From positions 1-37,046 of the forward strand of contig JAPLGS010000141.1 in the NCBI GenBank assembly GCA_026390015.1: a DNA stretch of 37,046 nucleotides, given 5' to 3'. Shown here one piece after another: positions 27,228 through 30,991 of this stretch (position 1 is the first letter of the stretch; every line of letters starts with the position of its first letter). Source of the stretch: Chloroflexota bacterium. GTDB taxonomy: Bacteria; Chloroflexota; Anaerolineae; Anaerolineales; Villigracilaceae. Under the pieces are notes generated by a model. That model was given only the letters and a program-made list of their open reading frames with translations. It was not told the DNA's origin and searched no databases. A program made the translations under genes and the position numbers.

Positions 27228-28475
27228 TTATTTTACTTCCTCATTATTTTTCTCTTCGACGGGCATATCTGGCAGGGTGATGGCTGTGCGGTTCAATTTG
27301 CGATTTGCGCTGATCAATAAAGCGAACATCCCGATCCCCAACACAGACATACCGCAGATCGCTGCGGGAATGATATTGAAAAGCCATTCGGGTTTGCCGA
27401 TGAATTCGCCGATCACGGAGATGCCTGCCCCGATGGCGCAGGCGTTCCAAATCCCATGAATGGCCACTGCTGAAAAATAGGCGGCAAAGAATCGACGGGC
27501 GCGCTTCTCGCGAAAAGCCGAGGCAATTCCCCAACCGACCAGACCGGATGCGGTCATGTGCAAAAGGCTGGTGCCCGCGCGGATACTTACGATCACCGGC
27601 CAGTTTGTGCTGCCATCTCCGCTTGCGTTAAGGCTTTCAAGCAGGGCGAATGCCGCACCGCTAAATATTCCCATCGCAAAGCCTTGCGCAGGTGATTCCA
27701 TGTTTTTTGCAAAGATCCAAACTGCGAGAGGTTTAAGAAGTTCTTCGATCAGGGGAACTAAGACTGCAATGTATCCGAGTAGAGCTGCGATCACTGCGGG
27801 AGTGGCGATGTAAGGAGCGATCAGAGTCAATATCCGTTCAGGGTCTGCACCTGTTTGCAGCTGCTGACCAAGGTGTAGCAACTCCTGAAATAGATCAGGA
27901 TTCTGAATTGCGATAATCGCTATTCCAGCAAAAATGACCGCCAGCAAAACGATCATCTCCAAGATGATCATGATCAATGGACTGATTGACATGCTCAGTC
28001 CAATTATGCTAAAGACACGCCAGCGCGGACCAAGCTCGAGCCCATGTGTGCCTATGCCGATCAGCATCCAAAGCGGCGGTACGATCACAAGGATGGTTAA
28101 GAGCGGCAGTACGATCCAGTTGAGCCAAATGATCTCTGTGAAAGCAGTAATTCCTCCGAGTGTCGCTGAAAAAACAACGATCCCTATCACTGCAGGAATC
28201 TGCCAGCCCGCAAATGGAAACTTGAATGGGCGCTCAGCCGGTTCGCGTCCCATGCTTTTTTGCAGAACGGCCCATGAACACAACAAAAGAATAATAAACT
28301 CAAAGCCGAATGCAAATGAGCTGATCATTCCCCCGGCAGGGTCGCTGCCATTTGTGAAGAGTTTGACGATCGAGGATACTCCTAATCCAAATGAAATTAA
28401 AAAGACGAAGGCTGTGCTAATTCCAAGAACGATCAGGATCACGATCGAAGGCCAGTGCGTTTTATTTGTTTGCAT
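27228..28475 (-). CDS. PrsW-like intramembrane metalloprotease (CAAX protease relative)
   Basis: A 415-residue protein with about ten hydrophobic segments. The PrsW motifs are complete: PLIEELLKPLAVW (Glu244, Glu245), GFAMGIFSGAAFALLESL (Glu280), LLHMTASGLVGWG (His306) and HGIWNA (His340). In Bacillus subtilis PrsW makes the first cut in an anti-sigma factor after envelope stress; other members have no known target. About 200 residues precede the catalytic core, an N-terminal extension of several helices beyond the usual 200-250-residue PrsW. The start overlaps the stop of the upstream fusion gene (TAATG), so translation is coupled. Confidence 0.88.
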   Translation of the reverse strand: MQTNKTHWPSIVILIVLGISTAFVFLISFGLGVSSIVKLFTNGSDPAGGMISSFAFGFEFIILLLCSWAVLQKSMGREPAERPFKFPFAGWQIPAVIGIVVFSATLGGITAFTEIIWLNWIVLPLLTILVIVPPLWMLIGIGTHGLELGPRWRVFSIIGLSMSISPLIMIILEMIVLLAVIFAGIAIIAIQNPDLFQELLHLGQQLQTGADPERILTLIAPYIATPAVIAALLGYIAVLVPLIEELLKPLAVWIFAKNMESPAQGFAMGIFSGAAFALLESLNASGDGSTNWPVIVSIRAGTSLLHMTASGLVGWGIASAFREKRARRFFAAYFSAVAIHGIWNACAIGAGISVIGEFIGKPEWLFNIIPAAICGMSVLGIGMFALLISANRKLNRTAITLPDMPVEEKNNEEVK

Positions 28476-29716
28476 TATTTCACATCCACATCCACGCTTA
28501 ATATTTTGTCACCCGCTGGCAAGGCCGCGCCTTGTGAAGGGTCACGCGGAGTTAATTTCTCCGCCACTTCCAGCCCGCTGATGACCTGTCCAAAAATTGT
28601 ATAGCCGTTGTCGAGATGAGGGGCGGGAGCAAAGGTGATAAAGAACTGGCTTCCGTTCGTGTCGGCCCCGGAGTTAGCCATACCGACCAAGCCGGGCTTG
28701 TCAAATTTCAAATCGCTGTGCTCGGTGTTAAAGAAATATCCAGGGTTGCCTTTACCAGTTCCACTTGGATCGCCGGCCTGCGCCGCAAATCCGGGAATCA
28801 CCCGATGAAAAGTTACACCATTAAACCAGTTATTTTGCGCAAGGAATACAAATGAATTAACAGCCAAAGGCGCCTTGTCTGGGAACAGCTGCATTACAAT
28901 GTCGCCTTTTTCTGTGTGGATCGTGGCGATGTATTGTTTAGCCGGATCAATATTAAAAACAGGGCATGTGGTAAATTGTTTTTTGCCGAGTGCGATCAAG
29001 CCGACGGTGTCGCTTATGTTTTGGAAATCAAGAACATAGGATGGCTGAATTGCGCCATTGATGAGAACCAGCGGAATCGCTGGAATATTTATTCTCTTCG
29101 CCGTCTCATACATTGATCTCATTGTGCTTGTAGCCTTTTCGGAAATGAACGCCGCTTTGAATTGATCCCCGTCTATGCCAGCTTTGACAGCCTCTCTAAC
29201 CACCCAGGCATTGAATTGGTCTGGCTTCAAATTTGTCCATTCATTGTATCTTGCGAACAACAGATCATACATCACCCAGAATTTATCCTGCTCATCCGCC
29301 GCGAGCGCGGCCAGCACAGCCTTATCTGATTTATCCGCGATGCCGATCAATGGCAAGGGACGGAATACAAATCGTACATTATTCTGTTCCTTCATCAACC
29401 GTCCAATGACCGTTGACATTGTGGCGCATCCTTCGGCTTGAAAATCACAATACTCGATGAGAGTCACGGGCGCATCGGCAGGGCCGATAGAAAAATCAGC
29501 GCCACTGACTGGAGGAAAGAGCGAGGTGGAAGCGGGTGCCGGCGTTGGTTCAGTGAAGATTGCAGAACAACTGATCTCAGTAGTGGGCGTGTCGATGATG
29601 ATTGGATTTTCAACGAAAGCCGGAGAGCTTGGTGGAATTTCAGTTTTTGAGGAGCAGGCATTCAGGATGAAAATTGAAGTGATAGCCAAGATCAATGGAA
29701 ATAAAAATTGTTTCAT
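28475..29716 (-). CDS. DsbA-like thioredoxin-fold / cyclophilin fusion lipoprotein
   Basis: A 413-residue secreted lipoprotein (lipobox LNAC, Cys21, after a hydrophobic signal). After a serine/proline-rich linker, residues about 72-245 form a DsbA-like (Thioredoxin_4) domain: DFSIGPADAPVTLIEYCDFQ, an inserted helical part, and the cis-proline site AIPLVLINGA (Pro215). The CXXC site reads AEGC: only Cys97 is kept, with a second cysteine shifted to Cys90. Residues about 260-413 are a complete cyclophilin peptidyl-prolyl isomerase: FHRVIPGFAAQAGD (Arg305), GSQFFIT and YTIFGQV. It should act on exported proteins outside the membrane. It is the second gene of the five-gene unit; the upstream stop and this start are adjacent (TAAATG). 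Confidence 0.92.
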   Translation of the reverse strand: MKQFLFPLILAITSIFILNACSSKTEIPPSSPAFVENPIIIDTPTTEISCSAIFTEPTPAPASTSLFPPVSGADFSIGPADAPVTLIEYCDFQAEGCATMSTVIGRLMKEQNNVRFVFRPLPLIGIADKSDKAVLAALAADEQDKFWVMYDLLFARYNEWTNLKPDQFNAWVVREAVKAGIDGDQFKAAFISEKATSTMRSMYETAKRINIPAIPLVLINGAIQPSYVLDFQNISDTVGLIALGKKQFTTCPVFNIDPAKQYIATIHTEKGDIVMQLFPDKAPLAVNSFVFLAQNNWFNGVTFHRVIPGFAAQAGDPSGTGKGNPGYFFNTEHSDLKFDKPGLVGMANSGADTNGSQFFITFAPAPHLDNGYTIFGQVISGLEVAEKLTPRDPSQGAALPAGDKILSVDVDVK

Positions 29717-30991
29717 TTATTGGTTTACTGCTTTCTGTAATTGCTCAAAGCTGGTCATCAAAGCAATTGTGTTTACAAAATCTGCGAGGGAAGCGCTTTG
29801 TTCACGCAAGGCGCGCACAGCCGGGCCGACGGGATCTTCTCCGGCTGCGCCACCGGGTGAGCTTGCGTAGGCGCCGTGAAATGCAAAATATGCCTGATTG
29901 ATCTTGCGGAATAAATAACCGTTTTCAAGAAAGACAAGGCGGCGTTTTTCCATATAAGATTCTGCTTCTTCAATTTTTCCTTCAGCAAGCAGGGCGTCGG
30001 CTGTGACGCGCGTTATGTTCATTTCTGCGCGGAAATCAAAGGGCGCAGGGGCAAATGATTCAGATTGAGAATTGCCATTTGACGTAGATATCAGGCTAAG
30101 GGTTGGATGCGAAGCGGTATTTAATTCAGGATAAAAACGTTTTACGACAAGCGCTCCAATTTCTTCTCCTGTGATGGAGGCGGTCGTCTCGTTCATGGTG
30201 CGAAGTTCGGGTGATTCTCCATATAAAAATCCAAGCGGCCGTAGTGTGAGATAGTTGTGAGTCCATTCGTGCGCCACGACGCTGAGCAGCCATTTCAGGT
30301 CGGTGGTTCGCATGACCATGGTTGGATAAACACCCACGCCTCCAATGCCAACTACCAGCGAAGATGTATTGAGTCCTTTATCCACGCGGCTTTCGAGTGC
30401 GGCTTGTTCGTCCAGCGGCAGGTCGGTATCCACTGAAATATTTGCGATCTGTTCAATATGGTCGCGTGGAGAAACGATGAGCGCCATGGGCAATGCTGTT
30501 GAGTGATACCAGACATTCGGCACAGTCTGACCGATTGCGGTGAGTCCATTTTCTGCGAGAACTTGACTCACTTGATCTTGTATTATTGCTTCTGCGAGCG
30601 GGGCTAATTTTGTTTGTCTGGAATAAAGCGCCGCAAGTTCTTCCCGCACGGTTATGGAACCGAGTTCTTTGTCTGTGATATTCACGTCTGCGTAGATGGT
30701 TTCAAGCAAATATTCTTTTTCAAGTATTGATTGCGTGGTGCGAAGATATTCCGTAACGATCTGTTTTTGCGAGGAGTTGTTAAATGTATAAGGCGCTCCA
30801 ATGGAGGCGGTTCGCAATTTGATCATTGCGGCATTTCCCATCCAGGTCAAGTAATTGAATTCGATCTGGCGTGTGTAGGTTCGCACTTTTTCGATTTCAT
30901 TGATGAGCGAGGGGTTGCTGTAGCCGGTGATCAGGGCTAGGGTCAGCAGGGTAATTGTTATTTCAAATCCACGTATGATGCGTTGGAACAT
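29717..30991 (-). CDS. Membrane-anchored HEXXH metallopeptidase-like protein, family not recognised
   Basis: A 424-residue protein with one N-terminal transmembrane segment (about 9-25) and the rest outside. VVAHEWTHNYL (His241, Glu242, His245) is a zinc-peptidase motif, and 23 residues further NETTASITGEEIG supplies candidate third-ligand glutamates (Glu268, Glu276, Glu277), as in gluzincin-type enzymes. The first 235 residues are helical with no known domain I can name; the C-terminal part has a helix-rich region and the stretch FHGAYASSPGGAAGEDPVGP. Activity is inferred from the motif. It is first in the unit and begins 7 nt after a TATAAT box. Confidence 0.78.
   Translation of the reverse strand: MFQRIIRGFEITITLLTLALITGYSNPSLINEIEKVRTYTRQIEFNYLTWMGNAAMIKLRTASIGAPYTFNNSSQKQIVTEYLRTTQSILEKEYLLETIYADVNITDKELGSITVREELAALYSRQTKLAPLAEAIIQDQVSQVLAENGLTAIGQTVPNVWYHSTALPMALIVSPRDHIEQIANISVDTDLPLDEQAALESRVDKGLNTSSLVVGIGGVGVYPTMVMRTTDLKWLLSVVAHEWTHNYLTLRPLGFLYGESPELRTMNETTASITGEEIGALVVKRFYPELNTASHPTLSLISTSNGNSQSESFAPAPFDFRAEMNITRVTADALLAEGKIEEAESYMEKRRLVFLENGYLFRKINQAYFAFHGAYASSPGGAAGEDPVGPAVRALREQSASLADFVNTIALMTSFEQLQKAVNQ

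Follow-up and report, generated by a model that had tools for sequence, protein, structure and literature searches.

DsbA-like oxidoreductases carry a CXXC active site, and this motif is treated as a hallmark of the fold on which annotation, trapping mutants and selenoprotein searches all lean. Section 9 of a published fold atlas distinguishes CxxC, Cxxc, cxxC and CxxxC sites and names CxxxC for SCO1-type proteins only, and the available excerpt of that source lists 22% of sequences as lacking such motifs or being too unusual to class (PMC2757866); because this share is left unclassed, a C-x6-C site could hide in it. DsbA-like selenoproteins have been described before (PMC1794560, in the portion available). 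The joining of a DsbA-like domain to a prolyl-isomerase-related one also has a precedent, as the accessible part of the description of FipB from Francisella tularensis presents a lipoprotein with a DsbA_Com1-like domain, a normal CXXC and an FKBP-N/Mip part, whose AXXC form did not restore intracellular survival (PMC3169626).

The fusion described here is encoded in a stretch of 37,046 nucleotides (the window) from a Chloroflexota contig (JAPLGS010000141.1), and it shares with FipB its lipoprotein nature and its pairing of domains, whereas it has AEGC instead of CXXC and a cyclophilin instead of FKBP-N/Mip (Table 1). It exceeds the Pfam cut-offs of two DsbA-like models (PF13462, 64 bits against 23.2; PF01323, 35.4 bits against 25.6) and of the cyclophilin model PF00160 (143.4 bits against 21.7). 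The lipobox cysteine, Cys21, was found in 49 of the 51 rows of the same genus, the remaining 2 rows having gaps there. Arg305, Phe310 and Gln313 of the cyclophilin domain, which we take to be the catalytic Arg, Phe and Gln of a cyclophilin PPIase, are invariant in 31 sequences. Judged from these features, the protein could well be a membrane-anchored extracytoplasmic foldase in which a DsbA-like domain is joined to a cyclophilin, an assignment that we make tentatively.

Table 1. Coordinates of the fusion gene, its features and its two flanking genes within the window
Feature	Position	Strand	Basis or remark
HEWTH (HExxH) protein, conserved upstream neighbour	29717..30991	-	No Pfam or NCBIfam match; adjoins the fusion in 61/63 loci
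DsbA-like/cyclophilin fusion lipoprotein, 413 aa	28475..29716	-	ORF and translation; Pfam PF13462, PF01323 and PF00160 over cut-off
Signal peptide and lipobox, residues 1-21 (..LNAC, Cys21)	29654..29716	-	Sequence
Cys50, in the arm after the lipobox; probable partner of Cys251 by co-conservation	29567..29569	-	Co-occurrence across loci
DsbA-like (Thioredoxin_4) domain, residues 73-223	29048..29500	-	Pfam, AF2, Foldseek
Cys90, relocated cysteine; final residue of strand 84-90 in the model	29447..29449 (TGT)	-	
Ala94, position of the first CXXC cysteine (Cys/Sec in relatives)	29435..29437 (GCC)	-	
Cys97, at the second cysteine position of CXXC; modelled in the first turn of helix 95-110	29426..29428 (TGC)	-	
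Pro120; His at the same position in 74/83 CXXC/UXXC relatives	29357..29359	-	
Ile214-Pro215, cis-Pro loop; Thr-Pro in 60/83 CXXC/UXXC relatives	29072..29077	-	
Cys251, in the linker	28964..28966	-	Co-occurrence with Cys50
Cyclophilin domain, residues 265-408	28493..28924	-	PF00160, E 9.1e-42
PrsW-like protein, one base shared with the end of the fusion gene	27228..28475	-	Present in 51/63 loci

The AF2 model gave the thioredoxin fold with a helical insertion, with pLDDT values of 81-96 by blocks over residues 71-220; elsewhere the model was poor (mean pLDDT of 64.5, with a large part of the cyclophilin under 50). Foldseek returned DsbA-like proteins, with 3gyk_A as the best match (E 6.6e-10, target TM 0.79) and the structures of BdbD, ScsC and Wolbachia alpha-DsbA1 among the others. 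The window domain thus has the fold, the cis-Pro loop and the second CXXC cysteine in common with DsbA-like oxidoreductases (Thioredoxin_4/DSBA; 3gyk_A is the closest solved chain), but it lacks their first cysteine and has a new one four residues upstream. In the three alignments viewed out of 64 matched PDB sequences, position 94 is occupied by Cys and position 90 by F, G or S.

The motif itself reads EYCDFQAEGC, with Y89-C97 at 29426-29452 of the minus strand. The first-pass annotation had described a DsbA-like domain with Cys97 kept, alanine at the first CXXC position and a cysteine at position 90, and the codons bear this out; all 51 loci of the genus share Cys90 and Cys97 with a non-Cys residue at 94. 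Its placing of the new cysteine seven residues upstream holds with respect to Cys97; counted from the lost Cys94, the distance is only four. It was also right that Pro215 is retained, as this residue aligns with the conserved cis-Pro of the family, the cis geometry being taken from the alignment. An error of sequencing or assembly, or decay of the gene, has a negligible probability as the origin of the site and is refuted by several observations: an orthologue from another genome (L002, 94% identical) has identical codons at 90, 94 and 97, contig CAIWRB010000138.1 (L087) has the motif as in the window, the CXXC or UXXC site is absent from 51/51 genus loci, the neighbouring genes are conserved, and the DsbA-like domain is under purifying selection (dN/dS 0.11-0.17 in three comparisons). 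Two records titled Herpetosiphon sp. and Brevefilum fermentans (L091, L094) carry the fusion and the neighbours of the window lineage, and their names may be wrong.

Relatives were collected by several searches. The first covered 101 relatives' genomes, 100 of which matched, some through the cyclophilin part only, and yielded 80 loci; the 57 genomes of the same genus searched there included 6 without a match over the DsbA-like region, and 51 loci of the genus were read; the second covered 400 genomes of the order, with 80 loci chosen from the best-scoring matches listed. In total, 160 loci were classed by their residues at 90, 94 and 97. Cys90 and Cys97 with a non-Cys residue at 94 (hereafter C-x6-C) occur in 69/160, spread over the genus (51/51), further genera of its family (9), family f14 (8) and family f11 (1), and 50/160 carry CXXC, 33/160 UXXC (TGA at 94) and 8/160 none of the three cysteines. 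Residue 94 of the C-x6-C loci is Ala, Ser or Thr in 68/69 (Ser/Thr in 45, Ala in 23) and Glu in 1/69. All four states were found among full-length fusions (77 rows, 76 of them of at least 330 residues), and CXXC, UXXC and C-x6-C are therefore alternative states of one fusion family. Inside the genus every copy read has lost the first CXXC cysteine and has a cysteine four residues upstream in its place, so sites without the first cysteine are general there, and an expectation that all orthologues would carry CXXC fails; many CXXC and UXXC orthologues were found outside the genus, including those of other Anaerolineales, which suggests that the change went towards C-x6-C.

The strongest signal is the way in which the three cysteines are combined. 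Cys/Sec94 with Cys97 and without Cys90 was found in 83/160 loci, Cys90 together with Cys/Sec94 in 0/160, and Cys97 was present in 152/152 loci with a partner and in 0/8 without one. A further 31 distinct loci (of 35 read), several from outside the order and with DsbA-like proteins counted regardless of a cyclophilin fusion, comprised 26 with Cys/Sec94 and Cys97, 5 with none and 0 with Cys90. When the fusion and the DsbA-like proteins nearest to it are taken together (191 distinct loci), there are 69 with Cys90 and Cys97, 109 with Cys/Sec94 and Cys97 and 13 with none; these loci are related and the counts do not represent independent events, and what gives the pattern its force is that no exception was met although the cysteines were gained and lost several times. 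A three-cysteine intermediate with both Cys90 and Cys94 did not occur in the 191 loci, nor did Cys90 without Cys97, in line with the co-variation that had been proposed as a check. Since a cysteine at 90 is never combined with one at 94 and Cys97 always has a partner, the first cysteine has moved four residues upstream. Among the options that had been put forward for the window protein, a C-x6-C pair is thus strongly supported; a single-cysteine isomerase, or any other single-cysteine enzyme, is rejected, because none of the 13 loci without Cys90 and without Cys/Sec94 has retained Cys97.

The loci without any of the three cysteines (L071, L073, L078, L147, L153-L155, L157, L270-L272, L275 and L280) kept the cis-Pro in 8/8 examined and have Asp94 in 5/8 of the 160-locus set and in 9/13 overall; they are probably redox-dead DsbA-like domains, to judge from their residues. 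A search with the C-x6-C motif itself as query gave at least 34 C-x6-C loci, from which no frequency can be estimated because the query was the motif. The DNA pattern [YF]C[DE]-aromatic-Q-xxx-C gave 22 matches in 400 genomes of the phylum (363 outside the order), a sample that holds no genomes of the two other C-x6-C clades and a pattern that misses variants such as CDFHSGGC (G039); 14 of the matches, from the window's family without exception, are this fusion, and the remaining 8 fall in short frames; one of these, L322, reached 7.5 bits (E 0.0033), most of it bias.

The UXXC relatives have an in-frame TGA at the first CXXC position in 33 loci (including L052, L058, L059, L135, L145, L159 and L161-L164). 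A hairpin about 19-39 nt after the start of the TGA, with 6-7 of 7 pairs and the loop CGTGNT, was found in 33/33 UXXC loci versus 3/50 CXXC loci, and because this hairpin is SECIS-like these relatives are very likely selenoproteins. The evidence is the fixed hairpin and not the folding energy, which differs little after codon 94 (mean -14.2 in Sec loci, -12.1 in Cys loci). Three loci from outside the order (L283-L285) also show an in-frame TGA at this position, and one CXXC (TGC) relative, L053 (G078), has a SECIS-like hairpin with 7/7 pairs, as if it had recently changed from Sec to Cys. The selenium machinery is widespread: selB was over cut-off in 51/59 genomes tested and in 15/17 Sec-type genomes, the two without a match (G098 and G090) being 86% and 83% complete. 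In G070, the only C-x6-C genome of family f11, no selB was over cut-off. The window genome has both selB and tRNA-Sec over cut-off, and a loss of selenium machinery was rejected as the cause of the cysteine move there. Two thioredoxin-family matches in the window genome (G000:C65:21850-22140 and G000:C150:52460-52717) have one in-frame TGA each; with selB and tRNA-Sec present, both may be selenoproteins.

How often C-x6-C arose was addressed with two trees. The domain-only tree, built from 124/160 rows (36 of the 51 genus rows left out) with the active-site columns removed, placed C-x6-C in three clades, two changes being forced by well-supported branches; its AU test against one clade gave p = 0.129 and did not reject a single clade. 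The full-length tree (73/77 rows, with L071, L075, L078 and L247 left out; 391 columns, with columns 120 and 214 removed as well) again placed C-x6-C in three clades, with 3 label changes needed and 3 forced by well-supported branches, one-change trees in 0% of 200 bootstrap trees and an AU test that rejected one clade (p = 0.0285). The C-x6-C clade of family f14 (g28/g72) is nested among Sec forms, the f11 sequence (g15) is sister to CXXC forms, and the window's clade lies, with weak branch support, among the CXXC, Sec and none forms of its family. Separate origins of C-x6-C are thereby favoured over a single one.

Given the evolutionary pattern of the cysteines, a Cys90-Cys97 disulfide is very likely, and it is probable that this bond, linking within the domain the last residue of the first strand to the initial turn of the helix, replaces the CXXC disulfide; a bond between two chains is a conceivable alternative. 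The other cysteines of the protein appear to be engaged elsewhere. Any Cys lying 11-32 residues ahead of the domain start was counted as Cys50. Of the 151 loci with at least 30 residues upstream (9 of the 160 rows, with too little upstream sequence, being dropped), 143 have Cys50 as well as Cys251 and 6 have neither, and 2 do not cover Cys251. Because they co-occur whatever the state of the active site, Cys50 and Cys251 are probably a pair of their own with a structural role. In L072, a C-x6-C locus of another family, Cys90 and Cys97 are the sole cysteines in the fragment read. A bond of Cys90 to Cys50 or to Cys251 is therefore unlikely, and Cys90 is the best in-chain candidate for a partner of Cys97.

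The annotation held that a classical thiol exchange is impossible with AEGC, which stands for CXXC chemistry but not for exchange in general, as the shifted pair may still react: Cys97, and not the lost Cys94, would act as the nucleophile and Cys90 as the resolving cysteine, and a small Ala, Ser or Thr at 94 would keep the sulfur accessible next to the cis-Pro loop. We give these steps, taken jointly, a tentative credence that stops a little short of balanced. The pair could be kept oxidised by the VKOR and the at least three other DsbA-like proteins with CXXC (CPFC, CPFC, CPAC) found in the window genome, whose presence also means that general disulfide formation need not depend on the fusion. 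The cyclophilin domain would act on clients shared with the DsbA-like domain, and a chaperone use, as the annotation had suggested from the fusion, is plausible in view of the cyclophilin and the kept cis-Pro.

Alternatively, the loss of Cys94 or Sec94 could have turned Cys97 into an orphan thiol exposed to oxidising surroundings, after which some lineages lost Cys97 and others gained Cys90; the buried disulfide would only stabilise, and the domain would be a redox-dead client-binding module of the prolyl isomerase. This is possible, though rather doubtful. It agrees with the lack of all three cysteines in 13/13 none-type loci, with scaffold residues and cis-Pro kept in every type, and with Cys90 and Cys97 being as invariant in the genus as Cys50 and Cys251. 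It also agrees with the fate of His120, present in 74/83 CXXC/UXXC loci versus 2/69 C-x6-C loci and lost in 7/8 none-type loci, a change that fits loss of catalysis and would count against continued exchange. The residue before the cis-Pro, Thr in 60/83 CXXC/UXXC loci, is Val or Ile in most C-x6-C loci (53/60, 8/8 and 1/1 in the three clades), which would likewise count against exchange; paired tests for both positions had three pairs only, one for each separate gain, and significance was unreachable. Tyr89, Gln93 and the cis-Pro are kept around the site, and are no sign of redox activity because none-type loci keep them as well. However, a purely stabilising bond explains less readily why each clade acquired its partner cysteine at the identical position, when none-type lineages persist without a disulfide there, and why residue 94 is small and non-acidic in 68/69 C-x6-C loci. 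We lean slightly, and tentatively, towards continued exchange by the shifted pair, and the two explanations remain close. The wider proposal, that a working dithiol site was rebuilt more than once by moving the catalytic (seleno)cysteine four residues back, is possible if somewhat doubtful.

Two other uses of the pair were weighed. Cys97 in its [S/T/A]xxC setting could be a peroxidatic cysteine resolved by Cys90, making the domain a peroxide-handling thiol enzyme or sensor instead of a protein disulfide enzyme; a cxxC site with Thr or Ser first is the peroxiredoxin pattern in the excerpt of the fold atlas (PMC2757866), and Ser or Thr94 occurs in 45/69 C-x6-C loci, yet Ala94 stands in the window protein (AxxC and not TxxC) and in 23/69 of these loci, no peroxiredoxin match was obtained with Pfam (E 0.001) or NCBIfam (E 0.01), and the domain matches DsbA-like structures, all of which leaves this improbable. 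Still less probable is that Cys90 and Cys97 bind a metal or cofactor. The analogy here is to SCO1, whose CxxxC binds copper; against it, His120 is lost and not kept.

The genes around the fusion are conserved as well. The 63 loci behind the neighbour counts of Table 1 come from two sets whose organisms are partly shared, and the 2 loci without the HExxH gene start at a contig end; the HEWTH protein is a possible uncharacterised metallopeptidase, judging by its motif. Genes for a tRNA methyltransferase and a NUDIX protein usually come next where the sequence reaches far enough. In three distant relatives a second cyclophilin match adjoins the fusion on the same strand (G062:C626:1597-2112, G083:C7:11752-12240 and G070:C267:18117-18629).

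Among described families, a close one is the Rcas_1661 family thioredoxin-like (seleno)lipoprotein NF041057, likewise a lipoprotein with a DsbA-like domain. The window protein matches its model over residues 12-223 (E 1.1e-21) with 77.5 bits, below the cut-off of 190; the match to this model of 247 positions stops before the cyclophilin, and the window protein has no Cys or Sec at 94. This (seleno)lipoprotein family, the selenoprotein forms of DsbA and the FipB type of fusion are already known, whereas the relocation of the cysteine, the exclusion pattern and the likely recurrence are new as far as the literature was searched, no C-x6-C DsbA being named in its titles and abstract openings. Annotation based on motifs would call C-x6-C proteins dead, though it may be that their dithiol has simply shifted. 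This one gene family occurs with Cys, with Sec, with a shifted Cys or without any cysteine in relatives near enough to each other for comparison. These states form a natural series in which to ask where the partner of Cys97 can be placed, whether the chemistry survives the move and what becomes of an orphan thiol, and the likely repeated swap serves as a natural experiment on the rebuilding of such active sites. The available excerpt of the fold atlas provides partial parallels: in SCO1, another thioredoxin-fold protein with a disulfide, the N-terminal active-site cysteine is shifted upstream, and in peroxiredoxins with a cxxC site the second cysteine is the nucleophile (PMC2757866), examples which show the fold to be compatible with each element of the exchange proposed here. 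The SCO1 shift is of one residue within the loop, whereas in the window fusion the cysteine has moved by four and lies at the strand end, giving C-x6-C and not CxxxC. If exchange by the shifted pair is true, a C-x6-C pair that reaches from the strand end to the first turn of the helix would serve the thioredoxin fold as a functional active site, of a kind that the atlas, in the part available, does not name.
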